DNA from: Chlorobaculum tepidum TLS
Lineage (GTDB): Bacteria > Bacteroidota > Chlorobiia > Chlorobiales > Chlorobiaceae
Assembly (NCBI RefSeq): GCF_000006985.1
Contig: NC_002932.3
Coordinates: forward strand, 62,001-126,000
DNA length: 64,000 nucleotides
Reading direction: 5' to 3'
This document shows positions 4,066-54,007 of the stretch, piece after piece. Under the pieces are notes generated by a model. That model did not search any database. It saw only the letters and a list, made by a program, of their open reading frames with translations, and had not been told where the DNA came from. The stretch's first letter is position 1. The number at the start of each line of letters is the position of its first letter. The position numbers and the translations under genes were made by a program.

Positions 4066-5166
4066 ATGCAGGAAATACCCGCAATTCTGGTTCTTGAAAA
4101 CGGCTCGGTCTATCGCGGCACCGCCTTTGGCCATGCTGGTGAAGCGACAGGCGAAGTGGTTTTCAACACCTCGCTGACCGGCTATCAGGAAATTCTGACC
4201 GATCCGTCCTACACCGGACAGATGGTGGTTATGACCTACCCGCTCATTGGCAACTATGGCATTACGCCGAACGATAACGAGTCGAAGAAAATCTGGGCTT
4301 CGGCGCTGATTGTGCGTGAAGCCTCCAACGTTTACAGCAACTACGAATCGACCCGCAGCCTCGACGCGACACTCAAAGAGGCTGGCGTGATGGGGCTTGC
4401 CGGCATCGATACCCGAAAGCTGGTGAGAGAGATTCGCCAGAAAGGCGCGATGCGGGCGGTGATTTCGACCTTGTGCGATGACGTCGCGGCGCTCAAGGCG
4501 CAGGCGGCGGCCATTCCCGAGATGACCGGCCTCGACCTGGTGCAGCGCGTCACCACCGGAGAGCGCTACACGGTGGACAATCCCGACGCCAAATATCACG
4601 TCGTCGCTTTCGACTATGGCATTAAGACCAACATCATCCGCCAGCTCAACGCCGAGGGGTGCAAGGTCACGGTGGTCAACGCCAAAACCACCGCTGACGA
4701 GGTGCTCGCCATGAATCCCGATGGCATCTTTCTCTCGAACGGCCCTGGCGATCCTTTTGCGGTCACTTACGCCATCGACACCATCCGGGAGCTGGCCGCA
4801 CGGAACAGCACGTTGCCGATCTTCGGCATCTGCCTTGGTCACCAGTTGCTTTCGCTCGCGTTCGGAGCGAAGACCTACAAGCTCAAGTTTGGCCATCACG
4901 GCGCGAATCATCCGGTAAAGAACCTCTTGAGCAACACGATCGAGATCACCTCGCAGAACCACGGCTTTGCCGTCGAAATGGAGAGTCTGCCGGGTGAGCT
5001 GGAGCTGACTCACAAGAATCTCTACGACATGACCGTCGAGGGTATCCGCCACCGCGAGCTGCCCTGCTTCTCGGTGCAGTACCACCCCGAAGCCGCTCCC
5101 GGCCCGCACGACTCGCACTACCTCTTCAAAGAGTTCACCGAACTCATGGAGAGGTTGAAAAACTGA
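4066..5166 (+). CDS. carA: Carbamoyl-phosphate synthase small (glutaminase) subunit
   Basis: A 366-residue glutamine amidotransferase subunit that supplies ammonia to CarB for carbamoyl phosphate in pyrimidine and arginine synthesis. The CarA-specific N-terminal domain covers about 1-170. The class I amidotransferase domain contains the nucleophile Cys256 in GICLGHQ and the His-Glu pair in QYHPE about 85 residues later. A Shine-Dalgarno AAGGAG sits at the end of yajC, rather far (about 12 bases) from the ATG. carB is not in the window. The stop codon lies only about 30 bases before a truncated outer-membrane pseudogene. Confidence 0.97.
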
Positions 5167-46723: not shown

Positions 46724-48334
46724 TTACTGCGCTGATGCCGCGGCGCGGCGTTTTTTCTTTGCTGCCGTCTCGATGCACTCACGCTGGGCGATGACCACCG
46801 AGACGCCGTTGTACGCAAACTCGTCGCGCAGCACGGAGACGTTTTCGTGGAGATGCTGGCGCAGTGGCACGATGGTTCTGATGTGCGCCTCTTCGACGCC
46901 GAGGCCGATGCAGATATTCACCAGCTTCGAGCCGGAGGCCGACGAGCACTGCCCGCCGGTCATGGCGGTGGTGTTGTTGTCCGCAATGATCACCGTCACC
47001 GGTGTCCGGTCGTTGACCGCGTCGAGCAGGCCGGTCATGCCGGAGTGGGCGAAGGTCGAATCGCCGATGACGCATACGGCCGGCCTCAGTCCCGCATCTG
47101 CGGCACCCTTGGCCATGGTGATGGCAGCGCCCATGTCCACGCAGGTATGGATCGCGTTGTAGGGAGGCAGGGCTCCGAGCGTGTAGCAGCCGATGTCCGA
47201 AAAGACATGGTGGTCGGCGTTTTCTTTGATGGCGATGTTGATCGCGTCGAACATGTCGCGGTGTCCGCAGCCCTTGCAGAGCTCCGGCGGCCGTCCCACG
47301 ACGATCTCCGGCGTGGTGGCGGTCTCAGGCGGCTTTACGCCGAGCGCCGCAGCAACCAGGTCGGTGGTCAGCTCGCCGTCACGCGGTAGGGTCCCGTCCA
47401 TGCGCCCACGTACTTTCGCCGAACCGAAATAGCCTCGGAACAGCTCTTCGTAGACAGGATAGCCCTCCTCGACGACAAGCACCTCGGAGCAGGCCTCGAA
47501 CAGTTCGTTCACCTGCGTCCGTGGCAGCGGATACTGCCCGATTTTCAGCAGCCGGCATTCGATGCTGTGGGCTTTCCGTGCCTCCATCGCGTAATTGTAT
47601 CCGATGCCGAAAGCGATGATGCCAAGAGGGCCGTGCCCCTCGACTGGCTGGTTGAGAAACGACGACTCCGACAGCGCTTCGAGCATTGGCTGGAGGTCGA
47701 GCAGATGGCGGTACTGTACGCGGGCGTTTTGCGGCATCAGCACGAACCGGCCGGGCGCGTACTCGGCGCTGAGAGGATTCTGCTCCAGCGAGGCTTTCAG
47801 TTCGACGCCCGCGCGGGAGTGCGATAGTCGCGTCGTCATGCGCATGATGACCGGCAGGCGCACAGCTTCGGAGAGTTCGAAAGCGTGGAACATCGCGTCG
47901 TACAGCTCCTGCTGGGATGCCGGTTCGAGCACTGGCACCATGGCGAAACGCCCGTACACGCGGCTGTCCTGTTCGTTCTGTGACGAGTGCATCGACGGGT
48001 CGTCGGCCACGGCGAGCACCAACCCTCCGTTTACGCCCGTGATGGCCGAGTTCATGAAAGCGTCAGCAGCGACGTTCAGCCCGACATGCTTCATACACAC
48101 GAGGCTTCGCTTTCCGGCGTACGACATGCCGAGGGCCGCTTCGTACGCGGTTTTTTCGTTCGCCGACCAGGCGGAGCGGATGCCGCTTTGGCGAGCCGGT
48201 GCGGAGCGCTGGATGTATTCGGTGATTTCAGTGGACGGGGTGCCGGGATAGGCATAGACGCCGGACAGTCCGGCATCGATCGCGCCCTGCGCGACAGCCT
48301 CGGCACCAAGAAGAAGTAAGCGGCTACGATTCAT
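46724..48334 (-). CDS. iorA: Indolepyruvate:ferredoxin oxidoreductase alpha subunit, no ferredoxin domain
   Basis: A 536-residue thiamine-diphosphate enzyme subunit. The N-terminal pyrimidine-binding part (YPGTPSTEITEYI) and the C-terminal TPP part (ELCKGCGHRDMF, then GDSTFAHSGMTGLLDAV) are complete. Usual IorA proteins continue with two CxxCxxCxxxC clusters of a ferredoxin domain; here the protein ends soon after VSVVIAQREC with a Lys/Arg/Ala tail. The Cys pair in CKGCG may hold the proximal cluster. The stop is clean and iorB follows at once, so the short form looks genuine. First gene of the operon. Confidence 0.92.
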   Translation of the reverse strand: MNRSRLLLLGAEAVAQGAIDAGLSGVYAYPGTPSTEITEYIQRSAPARQSGIRSAWSANEKTAYEAALGMSYAGKRSLVCMKHVGLNVAADAFMNSAITGVNGGLVLAVADDPSMHSSQNEQDSRVYGRFAMVPVLEPASQQELYDAMFHAFELSEAVRLPVIMRMTTRLSHSRAGVELKASLEQNPLSAEYAPGRFVLMPQNARVQYRHLLDLQPMLEALSESSFLNQPVEGHGPLGIIAFGIGYNYAMEARKAHSIECRLLKIGQYPLPRTQVNELFEACSEVLVVEEGYPVYEELFRGYFGSAKVRGRMDGTLPRDGELTTDLVAAALGVKPPETATTPEIVVGRPPELCKGCGHRDMFDAINIAIKENADHHVFSDIGCYTLGALPPYNAIHTCVDMGAAITMAKGAADAGLRPAVCVIGDSTFAHSGMTGLLDAVNDRTPVTVIIADNNTTAMTGGQCSSASGSKLVNICIGLGVEEAHIRTIVPLRQHLHENVSVLRDEFAYNGVSVVIAQRECIETAAKKKRRAAASAQ

Positions 48335-48378
48335 CTGTGGATTCTAACCTGGTCAATTGACAAAAATCAGAAAAATTT

Positions 48379-48395
48379 TGATTCCAAAGGAATCA
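48379..48395. promoter_or_regulatory. Palindrome upstream of iorA
   Basis: TGATTCC-AAA-GGAATCA, perfect 7-bp arms, 45-60 bases from the iorA ATG. It is a plausible operator. The rest of the gap 48335-48651 shows only a hairpin CAGGGCGA/TCGCCCTG near 48588-48617 beyond the end of the ATPase gene, without a T-run. Confidence 0.4.
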
Positions 48396-48651
48396 TAAAA
48401 AACGATAAGACTGCTCTCCGCTTACAGAAGAGCTGTGAATAGCCGTTATGGTCGGAAAGATAGTGAGGCGGACGTGCTTTTCTGAGACGTTTCAAACGCA
48501 GAGAGGCGTTGTTGACATCATCGCCTGTGGATTTTGCGAAACCCATGACGATGAAGGCTCGTTCGGTTTGACTCCATGAGAATGGTCAGGGCGATCCTCT
48601 TTTGTTCGCCCTGCGAGTGTTGTGAATTTCGGGAATGGCGATTCCTTTAAC

Positions 48652-49848
48652 TCATTTTGCCGTCTCCTTCTTCCTGAACTCGATTGCCAGCCATTTTTCC
48701 TCGTATCCGGCGTGGGTGACTTTCATGCCGGCCAGGAAGGTTGGGAGGACGACACTTTTCTGGTGGTTGCCGATTCTGATCGTCAGCAAGTCGCCGACCT
48801 GCACGATGTTGGCTTCCATGCGGTTGTCAAAGACAAAGGGCAGGCGCAGCTTCATGACGTAATGCCCTTCGCCGGGCTTGACGATCTCTGTATGCTCTTC
48901 GTGGTAGAAGATGTCGAGCGGGTTGCGGTCGCCGTAAACTGTTTCGCCCACCTTTTTAAGCATCTCAAGACCGAGCACCTCGGTGCGGAAGAGCGGCACC
49001 CGGGTGATGGGAATCGGCCCGAAAGAGGATTCGATCTCTGCGATGTATTTTTTCTGAATCTCTTTCCACCCTTTGAAATACTGGCCGTCAACGTCGTCCA
49101 TGTAAACGCGGTTGATGACGATCTGATCAATCGTGATGTTGTACAGATTGAGGTAGGTGAGTGCCCGCATCGACTCCTTGACGACCATTTTCTCCGGATT
49201 CATGACAAGTCGCACGGTGGTTTTCGAGTTGTCCGACAGGAGTTCGATGATCCCTTCGACCGACGAAAAGAGGTGATCGACCTGGTCATAGACGTCGGTG
49301 TCGGGCACGAAGTCGTGCAGGCGGCTGATGCGTTTGGAGAGCGGCCTGATGACCGGCTTGACGACGTACTTCTCCATGTTGCGCATCAGCTTGAGCATCC
49401 AGCCGAAGGTTTCCGGAATGGAGAGCAGGCGCAAGGTTTCGCCGGTTGGCGCACAGTCAACCACGAGCAGGTCATACTCGCTGGACTCGTTGTAGCGCTT
49501 GATGTAGGAGAGCGAGAAAAGCTCCTCCATGCCCGGCAGAACGCCCATCTCCTCGACGTAAATTCCCTCGATGCCCTGCACCTCCATCAGGTGGGCGAAG
49601 TGTTCGCGCACCACCTCCCAGTTGAGCGACAGATCGCCGTAAACGCTCACCTCCTGGCCCCAGAGATTTTCGGCCACCTTCACCGGCGATGGGCCGAGTT
49701 CGATGTCGAAGGAGTCGCCGAGGCTGTGGGCGGGATCGGTCGAGATGACCAGCGTTTTGTAGCCGAGAGCCGCGGCTCTGACGGCGGTCGACGCCGCGAT
49801 GGAGGTTTTGCCGACGCCCCCCTTGCCCGTAAACACGATGTTTCTCAT
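48652..49848 (-). CDS. ArsA/Get3-family ATPase with HSP20-like C-terminal domain
   Basis: A 398-residue P-loop ATPase. The deviant Walker A is GKGGVGKT near the N-terminus; switch-region [13 protein letters not shown] and [14 protein letters not shown] follow. The last 90 residues are a beta-sandwich like ArsA_HSP20 ([31 protein letters not shown]). The arsenite-binding Cys set of classical ArsA and the zinc CxxC of Get3 are not evident. Chlorobi carry several such proteins of unknown task, possibly in membrane-protein delivery. It is divergent from the sulfide:quinone oxidoreductase gene. Confidence 0.88.
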
Positions 49849-50430
49849 GCTGCCTCCTGTGAGGGAATTTTTTTGCCAATGTGCGGTCGTAACCTTTTAC
49901 AACCGATTCGGGGAGCTGATAATTTCTGTGGAAAGCAAGTGGGCCGCAGGCCGTTGCAGGGGCTGTTCGCGCGCAGCAACAATCGGAATGTCGTTATTTG
50001 AGAATACGTTGCAGGAGTGAGCCCGTGTACCTGCCCGGAAGTTGGTCGTTATGGGCGTCATTCTCAGGCACTTTTGAGGGCTGTTTCCCGTTTGTGCGAA
50101 ATCAGGAGCAATTTCCTTTCTCAATACGCCTCTTTTTTATGCTAAAAATGAGCAGGCGCTTGATTAATTATGAGCATATGGTTATAGTTGAGGCGCATGA
50201 CTTGCGGCATCCATTTCAGCCTTTTTGTTTCAGCAGCGAGCGAGCCGTTGCCGGAATTTTCAAGGATTATTATTGTTTCATGATCGCGGACATGCCTTCA
50301 CGTAATTATCAGTGTATCCATTTCGCTGCTCTGGCTGAGGTGTAGCCGTCGTTCTTTTTTCGGCCCGGGCAGGAGTGTTTGAGGTGTCTATTTGTTTTTA
50401 AATGGTTTAACAATGAAAATCTGACTCGTT
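49849..50430. other. Intergenic region between ArsA-like gene and sqr
   Basis: About 580 bases holding the divergent upstream regions of both genes. Several AT-rich stretches (TTTTTTATGCTAAAAATGAG near 50130-50150, TTTTTAAATGG near 50395) could contain promoters, but I find no confident -35/-10 pair. A 115-codon open frame on the plus strand looks unlike a protein. Confidence 0.5.
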
Positions 50431-51888
50431 ATGGCAAAGGTTGTTGTTTTGGGAGCTGGCGTTTCGGGGCATACCTGCGCATCCTTTCTCAAGAAAAAAC
50501 TTGGAAAGCAGCATGAGGTTGTGGTTATCTCGCCCAACAGCTATTACCAGTGGATTCCGTCGAATATATGGGTCGGCGTGGGCCATATGACCATCGACGA
50601 TGTGCGCTTCAAGCTCAAGAAGGTTTATGACCGCTGGGGCATCGATTACAAGCAGGCGAAAGCCGTTTCGATTCATCCCGAGGGCGACGCCAACATCAGC
50701 AAGGGATACGTCACCATCGAGTACACCGACGAGGAGCACGCCGGGTACACCGAGACGGTCGATTACGACTACCTTGTCAACGCCACCGGTCCAAAGCTGA
50801 ACTTCGAGGCTACCGAGGGGCTTGGGCCTGACAAAAACTCGCTGTCTGTCTGCACCTACAGCCACGCGGCTCATGCGTGGGAGGAGTTGCAAAAAAGCAT
50901 CGAAAAGATGAAGAATGGTCAGAAGCAGCGTTTCCTCATTGGCACCGGCCATGCGATGGCTACCTGTCAGGGCGCAGCTTTCGAGTATATCCTGAACGTC
51001 GCTCACGAAATCTCCCGTCGCGGCCTGAGCCACATGGCGGAGCTGACCTGGATTTCAAACGAGTACGAGCTGGGTGATTTCGGTATGGGCGGCGCGTTCA
51101 TCAAGCGCGGCGGTTACATTACGCCGACCAAGGTCTTTACCGAATCGCTGCTCGCTGAGTACGGCATCAAGTGGATCCGCCGGGCGGGTGTCTACAAGGT
51201 GGAGCCGGGCGTGGCCCACTACGAAACGCTCGACGGCGAAATGCTTTCGCAGGAGTTCGACTTTGCGATGCTTATTCCGTCGTTCTCCGGCGTTGGCCTG
51301 ACCGCCTTCGACAAAAGCGGCAACGACATCACCGACAAGATGTTTCTGCCGAACAAGTTCATGAAGGTCGATGCGGACTACACCGCCAAGCCGTTCGGCG
51401 AGTGGGGCGCTAACGACTGGCCGACCATCTACCAGACGCCGATGTACAGCAATATCTACGCCGCGGGCATCGCCTTCGCGCCGCCGCATTCGATCTCGAA
51501 GCCCATGACGAGCGTGAATGGCCGCCAGATTTTCCCGACGCCGCCGCGCACCGGCATGCCGTCGGGCGTTATCGGCAAGATCATTGCGCTCAATATCTCC
51601 GAGCAGATCAAGGGCAACCACAAGGAGCACCATCACAAAGCCTCGATGGCCCGCATGGGCGCAGCCTGCATTGTGTCGGCCGGCTTCGGTTCGTTTGACG
51701 GACTCGGCGCGTCGATGACCGTGTTCCCCATCGTGCCCGATTGGGAGAAGTATCCGGAGTGGGGCCGCGACATGACCTACTCGGTCGGCGAAGTGGGGCT
51801 TGCCGGTCACTGGCTGAAGTTCATGCTGCACTACCTCTTCTTCCACAAGGCGAAAGGCTATCCGTTCTGGTACCTGATTCCGGAATAA
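50431..51888 (+). CDS. sqrD: Sulfide:quinone oxidoreductase (type IV, Chlorobi)
   Basis: A 485-residue FAD flavoprotein that oxidises sulfide and passes electrons to the quinone pool. The FAD-binding start is VVVLGAGVSGHTCASFL; VNATGPKLNF is the second nucleotide motif. The redox cysteines probably include those in SVCTYSH (about residue 132), MATCQGAAFEY (about 175), and AACIVSAGFG. The C-terminal amphipathic region (LKFMLHYLFFHKAKGYPFWYLIPE) should attach it to the periplasmic face of the membrane. It matches my memory of C. tepidum CT0117 (SqrD). A tiny ORF follows after 50 bases. Confidence 0.93.
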   Translation: MAKVVVLGAGVSGHTCASFLKKKLGKQHEVVVISPNSYYQWIPSNIWVGVGHMTIDDVRFKLKKVYDRWGIDYKQAKAVSIHPEGDANISKGYVTIEYTDEEHAGYTETVDYDYLVNATGPKLNFEATEGLGPDKNSLSVCTYSHAAHAWEELQKSIEKMKNGQKQRFLIGTGHAMATCQGAAFEYILNVAHEISRRGLSHMAELTWISNEYELGDFGMGGAFIKRGGYITPTKVFTESLLAEYGIKWIRRAGVYKVEPGVAHYETLDGEMLSQEFDFAMLIPSFSGVGLTAFDKSGNDITDKMFLPNKFMKVDADYTAKPFGEWGANDWPTIYQTPMYSNIYAAGIAFAPPHSISKPMTSVNGRQIFPTPPRTGMPSGVIGKIIALNISEQIKGNHKEHHHKASMARMGAACIVSAGFGSFDGLGASMTVFPIVPDWEKYPEWGRDMTYSVGEVGLAGHWLKFMLHYLFFHKAKGYPFWYLIPE

Positions 51889-51938
51889 GATGGGGCAACA
51901 TTCAAGAGATATCGATTTCAATCTAAAACTCGTGAATC

Positions 51939-52097
51939 ATGGGTAACTATAAATTCAAGGCATACTACGACGAAGCCTATCCTCCGGTGCCCGACAAGGC
52001 GACGCTTTTTTGGCGCAAGTTTATACCGTGGCAGCTCTTCAGGTTTTTCATCCTGAACATCAAGATGATCCGCATCGTCGTCGGCGGTCACTCCTGA
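51939..52097 (+). CDS. 52-residue membrane-associated companion of sqr
   Basis: A very short reading frame, starting MGNYKFKAYYDEAYPPVPDK and ending IRIVVGGHS. The N-terminal half is polar and aromatic, while the second half (FWRKFIPWQLFRFFILNIKM) is a hydrophobic, basic helix that would lie in or along a membrane. It is 50 bases behind sqr and ahead of the shared terminator, so the two are one transcript. No strong ribosome binding site is seen; the codons are well used and no other frame explains the stretch. I know no family for it. Confidence 0.7.
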   Translation: MGNYKFKAYYDEAYPPVPDKATLFWRKFIPWQLFRFFILNIKMIRIVVGGHS

Positions 52098-52127
52098 TCG
52101 TTCCATCGCGCATTCGGGAATGAGCCA

Positions 52128-52176
52128 CAAAGCCCCGGAAGTTCCGGTTTCATCCGTGAACGTCCGGGGCTTTTGC
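52128..52176 (+). terminator. Terminator after sqr unit
   Basis: AAAGCCCCGGA pairs with TCCGGGGCTTTT across a 23-base loop that can itself fold (TTCCGG...), followed by a short T-run. Confidence 0.85.
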
Positions 52177-52188
52177 GTGTTCCGTCAC

Positions 52189-52216
52189 TTGACACCGTTT
52201 GCTGATTCTGTATTCT
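52189..52216 (+). promoter_or_regulatory. Strong-looking promoter before lysozyme stub
   Basis: TTGACA (52189-52194), 16-base spacer, TATTCT (52211-52216). It points toward the lysozyme fragment and lies just after the sqr terminator. Confidence 0.6.
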
Positions 52217-52299
52217 CAAGTTGAGAGCCATTTTGTTATACAGCTCCTTCGTTTAGCCATGCTTGTGCCCGGTGTTTCCAATTCAAAACAGGAGTGATC

Positions 52300-52383
52300 A
52301 TGCAGGTATCCGAAGCTTGCCTGAATATCATCAGAGATTTTGAAGGGTTCATGCCAATGCCCTATCGTTGTCCAGCCGGTGTT
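52300..52383 (+). pseudogene. 5' stub of a phage-type (GH24) lysozyme
   Basis: The frame opens with an excellent ribosome binding site (GGAG) and encodes MQVSEACLNIIRDFEGF... then PYRCPAGV, the first 28 residues of a GH24 endolysin, including the catalytic Glu (Glu15). The following WTIGYGHT part of the active site is missing; the frame runs on to 52533 in unrelated sequence over the end of the nitroreductase gene. It has an upstream promoter-like element. It is probably the leftover of a prophage or captured lysozyme gene, cut by a deletion. Confidence 0.65.
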
Positions 52384-52460
52384 CGATGCCCGGTTTTCGG
52401 TGACAGCGTTGAGCCTGCCAGTCTGTGGGCTATCAGACGCTTGTTGGCCTCCTCTCTTTC

Positions 52461-52979
52461 TCACAAATACCGGACGACTTCGTTGAGTGGCTTGCGGCTT
52501 TTCGGGCGGGTCTGTGCGTCGGCGGAGGCGTAACCGATCGGGGTGATGGCGAAAACTTCTTCGGATGGTTTCAGATCGAGCGCTTCGCGCAGCATTGCCG
52601 GGTCAAAGGCTGAAATCCAGCAGGTGGCGAGGCCTTCGGCATGCGCGGCCAGAATCAGCTGATCCATTGCGATGCCGAGGTCGGTTTCGATCGAGTTCCA
52701 GCCGTCTGACGGGCGCACCCAGGCATCATTGCGGTCACCGGTGACGATGAGGATGTGCGGCGCTTGCTGGAACCAGTCGCGCTTGTAGCAGGAGCGGATT
52801 TTCGCAAGCATCTCAGGCGAGCTGACCAGCAGGAACGTCCATGGCTGAAGGTTTTTGGCCGACGGGGCGAGCCGCCAGGCATCGAGCACCCGTTCGAGAA
52901 TTTGTGGAGTCACGGGTTGGCTTGTGTCGTAACTGCGGACGTTTTTGCGGGATTCTGCAAGATCGTGCAGGTTTGTCAT
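52461..52979 (-). CDS. Nitroreductase-family flavoprotein
   Basis: A 172-residue FMN-type oxidoreductase. SRKNVRSYDTSQPVT is the FMN-binding start, APSAKNLQPWTFLLV the next conserved part, and ISAFDPAMLREALDLKPSEEVFAITPIGY near the end. Substrate unknown. Its start overlaps the stop of the K+ channel gene on the same strand, so it is not the first gene: the channel gene lies upstream and is translated just before it. Confidence 0.88.
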   Translation of the reverse strand: MTNLHDLAESRKNVRSYDTSQPVTPQILERVLDAWRLAPSAKNLQPWTFLLVSSPEMLAKIRSCYKRDWFQQAPHILIVTGDRNDAWVRPSDGWNSIETDLGIAMDQLILAAHAEGLATCWISAFDPAMLREALDLKPSEEVFAITPIGYASADAQTRPKSRKPLNEVVRYL

Positions 52980-54007
52980 CGCTGCGTTTCTCCCTGGGCC
53001 AGCTTGCAGAGCATTTCGAGATCATCGCTTTTGCCGATAACGATGATCGTGCCGTTTTTCTGGATGATCTCCGCTGGGCGCGGCGTGGTGTGCAATTCGC
53101 CGTCCGGCAGCTTGTAGCCAACCACGTTGATGCGGTGGTTGTTGTACAGATCGACCTCCTGAAACGATTTGCCGACGAGCGGCGAATTGTCGCCAACCAG
53201 GTACTGGGCGATCCGGAGATTGAGGTTGTTGGCGTTGCTCAGCTCGTCGAGGTACTCTTCGAGTTCAGGTTCGGTCAGGAGGCTGGCCATGCGCTTGCCT
53301 GCCGAGCGGTAGAGCATCACCACCTTTTCAGCGCCTGCCCTGCGAAGCTTGCTTTCAGACCCGTCGCAGTCAGCCCGCGCCACGATGTACAGGTTTGGCT
53401 TGAGATTCCGCGCCGTCAGCACGATAAAGACGTTTTCAGCGTCGTTGCCTGCGGCGGCGATCAGCCCCTTTGCCCGGTGCAATCCGGCATCGGCCAGCAC
53501 CTCTTCATCCGCGGCGTTGCCCTTGATGGCCAGGAATCCTTCATCGCGGGCGCGGAGCACGTTGTCGATCATGTTGTCGATGACCACGAAGGGGACCGCC
53601 TTGGCCCGAAGCTCTTCGGCGACGCTTCCCCCGAGACGACCGTAACCGCAGATGATGAAATGGTCGTTCAGTTTCCGAAGCATGCGTTCATTGCGTTGTT
53701 GTTCCCAATGCTCCTTCCACTCGCCCGAGACGAAGAAGACGGCCACACTGGTCAGGGTGAAGAAAAAGATGCCCGTGCCGCCGACGATCAGCACCATCGT
53801 GAAAATCTTGCCCACATCGTCCAGCGGACGGACTTCGCTGAAACCAACGGTGGCCACCGTGATGACCGTCATGTAAAGTGCGTCCAGGAGGCTCATGTTT
53901 TCGAGGTACATGTAGCCAACCGTTCCCGAAATGACCAGGAGTGCCACGCTGATGATCGAGACCGAGAACCGGCGGAGGGCGGAAATCTGTTGTGCGTCCT
54001 TGCTCAA
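52976..54007 (-). CDS. Two-helix K+ channel with RCK (TrkA) domains
   Basis: A 343-residue channel. Helix one is about 13-33, the pore loop has the filter TVATVGFSE (50-58), and helix two is about 66-92. The RCK N domain follows with HFIICGYGRLGGSVAEELR and VIKGN/AIKGNA, then an RCK C domain. The filter reads GFSE instead of GYGD, an altered but known variant that could change selectivity. It overlaps the nitroreductase gene by four bases. Confidence 0.9.
   Translation of the reverse strand: MSKDAQQISALRRFSVSIISVALLVISGTVGYMYLENMSLLDALYMTVITVATVGFSEVRPLDDVGKIFTMVLIVGGTGIFFFTLTSVAVFFVSGEWKEHWEQQRNERMLRKLNDHFIICGYGRLGGSVAEELRAKAVPFVVIDNMIDNVLRARDEGFLAIKGNAADEEVLADAGLHRAKGLIAAAGNDAENVFIVLTARNLKPNLYIVARADCDGSESKLRRAGAEKVVMLYRSAGKRMASLLTEPELEEYLDELSNANNLNLRIAQYLVGDNSPLVGKSFQEVDLYNNHRINVVGYKLPDGELHTTPRPAEIIQKNGTIIVIGKSDDLEMLCKLAQGETQR

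Follow-up and report, generated by a model that had tools for sequence, protein, structure and literature searches.

A small gene accompanying type IV sulfide:quinone oxidoreductase probably encodes a membrane-facing partner of the enzyme

Introduction

In the 64,000-nucleotide stretch of the Chlorobaculum tepidum TLS chromosome analysed here, referred to as the window, a frame of 52 codons follows a gene for a sulfide:quinone oxidoreductase (SQR), raising the question of whether this frame is a gene and, if so, what its product does for the enzyme. In the available text of PMC9666304, SQRs are described as monotopic: membrane binding and the quinone site both belong to the C-terminal domain, in which most SQRs have two amphipathic helices. 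CT0117 of C. tepidum is treated as a characterised type IV SQR in the accessible part of PMC4584964, and the portions of PMC4584964 and PMC3368242 available to us describe type IV SQR as a single protein and mention no small partner. A search of the openly licensed literature brought up no paper on a small companion of SQR, and the small gene apparently has no name.

Results

The sqr locus and the small frame

The sqr gene (50431–51888, plus strand) encodes a type IV SQR (SqrD) of 485 amino acids according to the list of open reading frames, the domain match, and the solved relatives. The enzyme is of the same type as CT0117 and Alvin_2145 of A. vinosum, and its gene is presumably CT0117 itself. 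The Pyr_redox_2 match of the window SQR exceeds the cut-off, and SQRs in the PDB match it at E values of 1e-33 to 1e-54, with the type I SQRs 3hyv/3sz0 as the best solved relatives. A model of a relative compared with the solved SQR fold gave Z values of 35–37. Furthermore, the three cysteines with a redox role in SQRs, C139, C177, and C417 in the numbering of the first alignment row, are invariant in seven divergent members.

The frame of the 52-amino-acid protein, identified from the open reading frame list and its conservation, begins with ATG and occupies 51939–52097 on the plus strand. It is separated from sqr by an intergenic gap of 50 nt (51889–51938, plus strand, from the frame coordinates), within which the scan found no promoter-like or terminator-like site. 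Because the gap is 50 nt, sqr and the small gene are likely co-transcribed. Folding of 52128–52178, downstream of the small frame, gave a structure of −31.1 kcal/mol whose outer stem comprises 11 bp and which ends in CTTTT; this strong hairpin with a short T run (52129–52173, plus strand), which was not called by the automatic terminator scan, is the probable end of the transcript of sqr and the small gene. The first-pass annotation had placed the frame between sqr and its terminator, and the frame indeed lies 50 nt past sqr on the same strand, with the hairpin on its 3′ side. An arsA-like gene (48652–49848, minus strand) precedes sqr, and a nitroreductase-like gene (52461–52979, minus strand) comes after the small frame. 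Adjoining the latter, 52976–54007 on the minus strand encodes a protein that resembles potassium channels and contains an ion channel domain and a TrkA domain.

The small frame is a gene

Frame length by itself is no proof of a gene, because 58 frames of at least 30 amino acids overlap 49000–54000. Among 31 Chlorobi-type coding sequences, codon positions 1, 2, and 3 hold 24.6%, 10.8%, and 64.6% of the differences, respectively, and the median dN/dS of the small gene is 0.097 over 328 of the 465 pairs, the remaining pairs being left out owing to saturated or too few synonymous differences. The small frame is a conserved coding gene under purifying selection. The many chance frames of similar size nearby might suggest yet another chance open frame, a reading to which the dN/dS of 0.10 and the conservation across phyla leave practically no probability. 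The possibility that the sequence is an RNA element mistaken for a frame was ruled out by the coding constraint together with the lack of any Rfam match in 48000–54000. The gene had been expected to escape most gene finders; this expectation is not supported, the gene being annotated as ‘hypothetical protein’ in all three plasmid records with a type IV SQR.

Linkage of the small gene to type IV SQR

In 394 genomes of the Bacteroidota phylum, the type IV SQR family gave 105 matches in 96 genomes (E ≤1e-78) and the small protein gave 109 matches in 97 genomes (E ≤1.5e-7). These counts leave out 12 small-protein matches with E values of 7e-4 to 9e-3 and five distant SQR matches with E values of 1e-47 to 6e-41, beside which no small protein was listed. 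The small protein was present in all 96 SQR genomes, which represent 18 genera and nine families, and 103 of the 105 SQR matches were followed by the small gene at a distance of no more than 254 nt, with a median of 41 nt. Both unpaired SQR matches are contig-edge fragments. Six small genes have no paired SQR; five of them are also at contig edges, and the sixth is a broken frame in genome G349. This apparently decayed copy (4293–4520 of locus L153, on contig C37) belongs to the only one of the 97 genomes with the small protein that has no type IV SQR, as if the function had been lost once the enzyme was gone. In 150 genomes of a class of Campylobacterota, the sets of genomes with SQR and with the small gene were identical, comprising 35 genomes and 36 pairs out of 36. 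The Fisher values for the two sets, 2e-92 and 5e-35, are not readable as probabilities, because shared ancestry is ignored and one family supplies 77 of the 96 SQR genomes.

A profile built from Chlorobi only matched the small protein in 78 of 80 loci of Bacteroidota, Chlorobi, and Campylobacterota, which were picked by SQR rather than by the small protein and come partly from the same genomes as the phylum set. The two missed loci have no downstream DNA (L059) or 354 nt only (L124). In each of the 78 loci the small gene shares the strand of sqr and follows it, and relatives of other flanking frames (at least 100 amino acids) were present in at most 8 of the 80 loci, versus 78 for the small gene. 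The gap is about 270–800 nt in four of the 78 loci (L055, L056, L074, and L096). In L055 and L056, the roughly 700-nt gap contains a frame that matches PF05635, the family of 23S rRNA-intervening-sequence proteins, with an E value of 8e-14 in L055, and behind this frame the small gene is kept. Duplicated SQRs occur with a duplicated partner, for example in G472 and G210, and plasmids of Sulfurovum (Campylobacterota), Thiodictyon (Gammaproteobacteria), and Marivivens (Alphaproteobacteria) bear the pair. Furthermore, a 38-amino-acid version with the same core was found in all seven loci of a paralogous SQR clade of Chlorobiaceae, which is 38–42% identical to the window SQR. This clade (L042–L048) contains the sole SQR of the family in G022, G028, and G036.

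No small protein was found near the genome's other flavoproteins at 19 loci (L133–L151, two of them in one gene), including the type VI-like SQR at L144, which is probably CT1087, nor near three type I-like plasmid SQRs (L163–L165), the best E value among all these loci being 0.56. Next to these plasmid SQRs stand DUF2892 genes, on the upstream side in L164, on the downstream side in L165, and on both in L163, and the DUF2892 protein, a different small protein, may be a separate companion of those type I-like SQRs. All accepted small-protein matches in the phylum and Campylobacterota sets were in frames shorter than 100 amino acids, and no fusion with SQR was found among them. Weak matches in long frames of G048 and G042 were rejected as fusions, the frames being multi-helix, transporter-like, and without SQR. 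The small gene is thus an almost obligatory and exclusive neighbour of type IV SQR across several phyla, and the partnership between the two is well supported. The first-pass annotation had staked its proposal on conservation of the frame in relatives with the same sqr, in which the frame proved strongly conserved.

Features of the small protein

Pro18, Arg26, and Gln32 are invariant across the 78 loci, and Tyr8, Arg35, Asn40, Lys42, and His51 are near-invariant. The small protein has no conserved cysteine, position 28 being Cys in 24 of the 78 loci, and a sulfur-carrier role through Cys is therefore unlikely. The C-terminal half was correctly described at first as hydrophobic and basic, residues 27–52 having a net charge of +4. 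Of the initial description as a 52-residue amphipathic protein, the 52-residue frame is real and the amphipathicity is weak: the core has a helical moment of 0.31, a value that was reached in 2842 of 10000 shuffled orders of these residues and is thus not above composition. Segments of 18 residues in the core average 0.27–0.42 on the Eisenberg scale, and four or five of their residues are strongly polar.

Read-through models of a Chlorobium locus and a Hydrogenimonas locus gave a confident SQR fold; for the small protein they predict two helices at moderate confidence (pLDDT about 55–80). In the first of these (Chlorobium), the helices comprise residues 20–27 and 29–50. By homology to the modelled relatives, the main helix of the window protein is predicted at residues 29–50 (52023–52088, plus strand; pLDDT about 55–80), with Gln32, Arg35, and Lys42 inside an 80-degree arc. 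This predicted helix has too many polar residues (Gln, Arg, Asn, Lys, and Arg) for a typical transmembrane helix, and a position at the membrane surface is more likely. The 52-amino-acid protein of the window had no sequence match in Pfam, NCBIfam, or the PDB, and 18 members of its family compared with Pfam-A and NCBIfam gave only stray single-member matches at E values of 0.02–0.11.

The C-terminal end of type IV SQR

The type I SQRs of A. aeolicus (3hyv) and A. ferrooxidans (3t31) share the core fold of the window SQR and are its closest solved relatives. They have two C-terminal amphipathic helices in one chain, whereas the window SQR has one, and another helix is predicted in the product of a separate gene. 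The only C-terminal helix of the window SQR, GHWLKFMLHYLFFHKAKG, with its fixed xPE/D end, was located at 51805–51885 (plus strand) by alignment and a structure model. In the alignment, all 11 type IV or paralogue SQRs stop about nine residues past this single helix with the xPE/D end, and a second C-terminal segment present in all three type I-like SQRs is absent from the type IV chain. An insertion of about 20 residues, xTVxPxVPDxxxYPxxGRD (about 51714–51790 in the window), precedes the C-terminal helix of type IV SQRs and is absent from type I-like SQRs; it is perhaps a candidate docking site for the small protein.

When the two read-through models were superposed on solved structures, 3hyv, 3t2z, and human SQOR aligned with either model over a range that reached the small protein, and with most other entries of A. 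ferrooxidans the range stopped earlier. It also ended in the small protein for some flavoproteins without known membrane helices, such as the soluble 1xhc and 1f8w. Because such unrelated flavoproteins align in this way too, we downgraded the superposition as support for a split-off SQR tail, with which it is compatible without being decisive. In solved SQRs, the second C-terminal helix showed no sequence similarity to the small protein.

Discussion

Because the small gene accompanies type IV SQR almost everywhere searched, type IV SQR probably consists of two parts and not of one protein. We consider it probable that the small protein serves type IV (SqrD) SQR as a subunit, binding its C-terminal, membrane-facing side and aiding membrane hold and/or quinone entrance. 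The small protein would be made from the same short operon as SqrD and would dock on the C-terminal, membrane-facing side of SQR, its hydrophobic basic helix lying in or on the membrane surface beside the single C-terminal helix of the enzyme. There, it may help to hold the flavoprotein on the membrane and/or to shape the quinone entrance. That the small protein would complete the membrane face of the type IV enzyme is proposed because the SQR chain ends after one helix where type I chains continue; physical binding, membrane placement, and an effect on quinone reduction are inferred. Anchoring or stabilising of the enzyme, the role suggested in the first-pass annotation, would fit best.

According to the available text of PMC9666304, an archaeal SQR lacking one or two C-terminal helices became soluble and inactive (Lencina et al., cited therein), and a type VI SQR lacking its single helix stayed membrane-bound. 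The type VI result cautions against regarding C-terminal helices as the only anchor. The absence of a fusion between SQR and the small protein among the genomes searched, a helix that is not clearly more amphipathic than expected from composition, and the moderate confidence of the small protein in the read-through models argue against the binding model.

A more specific reading, which we hold to be possible but rather doubtful, is that type IV SQR is a split enzyme, in which the second C-terminal membrane helix that type I SQRs have where the quinone channel opens is encoded as a separate gene. If so, type IV SQRs would be obligate two-subunit enzymes, preparations of the large chain only would be incomplete, and the 38-amino-acid version beside the paralogous clade would date the split before that divergence.

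The one-to-one occurrence and adjacency of the two genes would be explained equally well by a factor that is dedicated to type IV SQR and acts transiently in its assembly, insertion, or stability, for example in FAD loading or membrane delivery, without belonging to the mature enzyme, and small basic proteins can serve in this way. We regard such a factor as unlikely, since the invariant residues are spread over the whole protein (Tyr8, Pro18, and the core helix) and since the type IV SQR is without a C-terminal segment present in its relatives, which fits a structural part slightly better. The strict linkage of the small protein to sulfide oxidation might instead point to an independent membrane protein handling polysulfide, sulfur, or quinone beside SQR. 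However, such a role is quite improbable given that the small protein has neither a conserved cysteine nor a cofactor motif and follows only one SQR type, other SQR types of the same genome being without it. A short gene at the transcript end could also regulate sqr expression or quinone/sulfide sensing, either as a feedback peptide or as an RNA element read as a frame, but the strong coding constraint, the lack of an Rfam match around the locus, and a spacing that varies while the protein is kept make this very improbable.

The proposed subunit resembles known partners of respiratory enzymes in part. In Bacillus, YjlC is a separate partner of YjlD. That pair (entry 9a63, ‘Integrative model of YJLC-YJLD’) is likewise a monotopic quinone-reducing flavoprotein, NADH dehydrogenase 2, with a co-encoded partner, and is a precedent for such an arrangement; a difference is that the small protein has no Pfam family match. 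CydX is a tiny single-transmembrane subunit of a respiratory enzyme, and the small protein is like it in being tiny and encoded last in the operon of the enzyme served. Unlike the single transmembrane helix of CydX, the helix of the small protein is polar and apparently interfacial. Neither SQRs nor small accessory subunits are new in kind, and an obligate small subunit, possibly a split-off SQR tail, would be a variation on them. The first-pass annotation was right about the partnership with SQR and about how to test it, and understated its reach.

Active SQR is hard to obtain from other hosts, as stated in the available text of PMC9666304, and the partner could help to explain this difficulty. 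A universal partner would alter the expression, purification, and modelling of type IV SQR, and the small gene could serve as a genomic marker distinguishing type IV SQR from other flavoproteins. Type IV SQRs rank among the chief enzymes that oxidise sulfide in Campylobacterota and in green and purple sulfur bacteria, and SqrD, central to sulfide-driven photosynthesis and to chemolithotrophy at vents and in sediments, belongs to enzymes treated as one-protein membrane enzymes.
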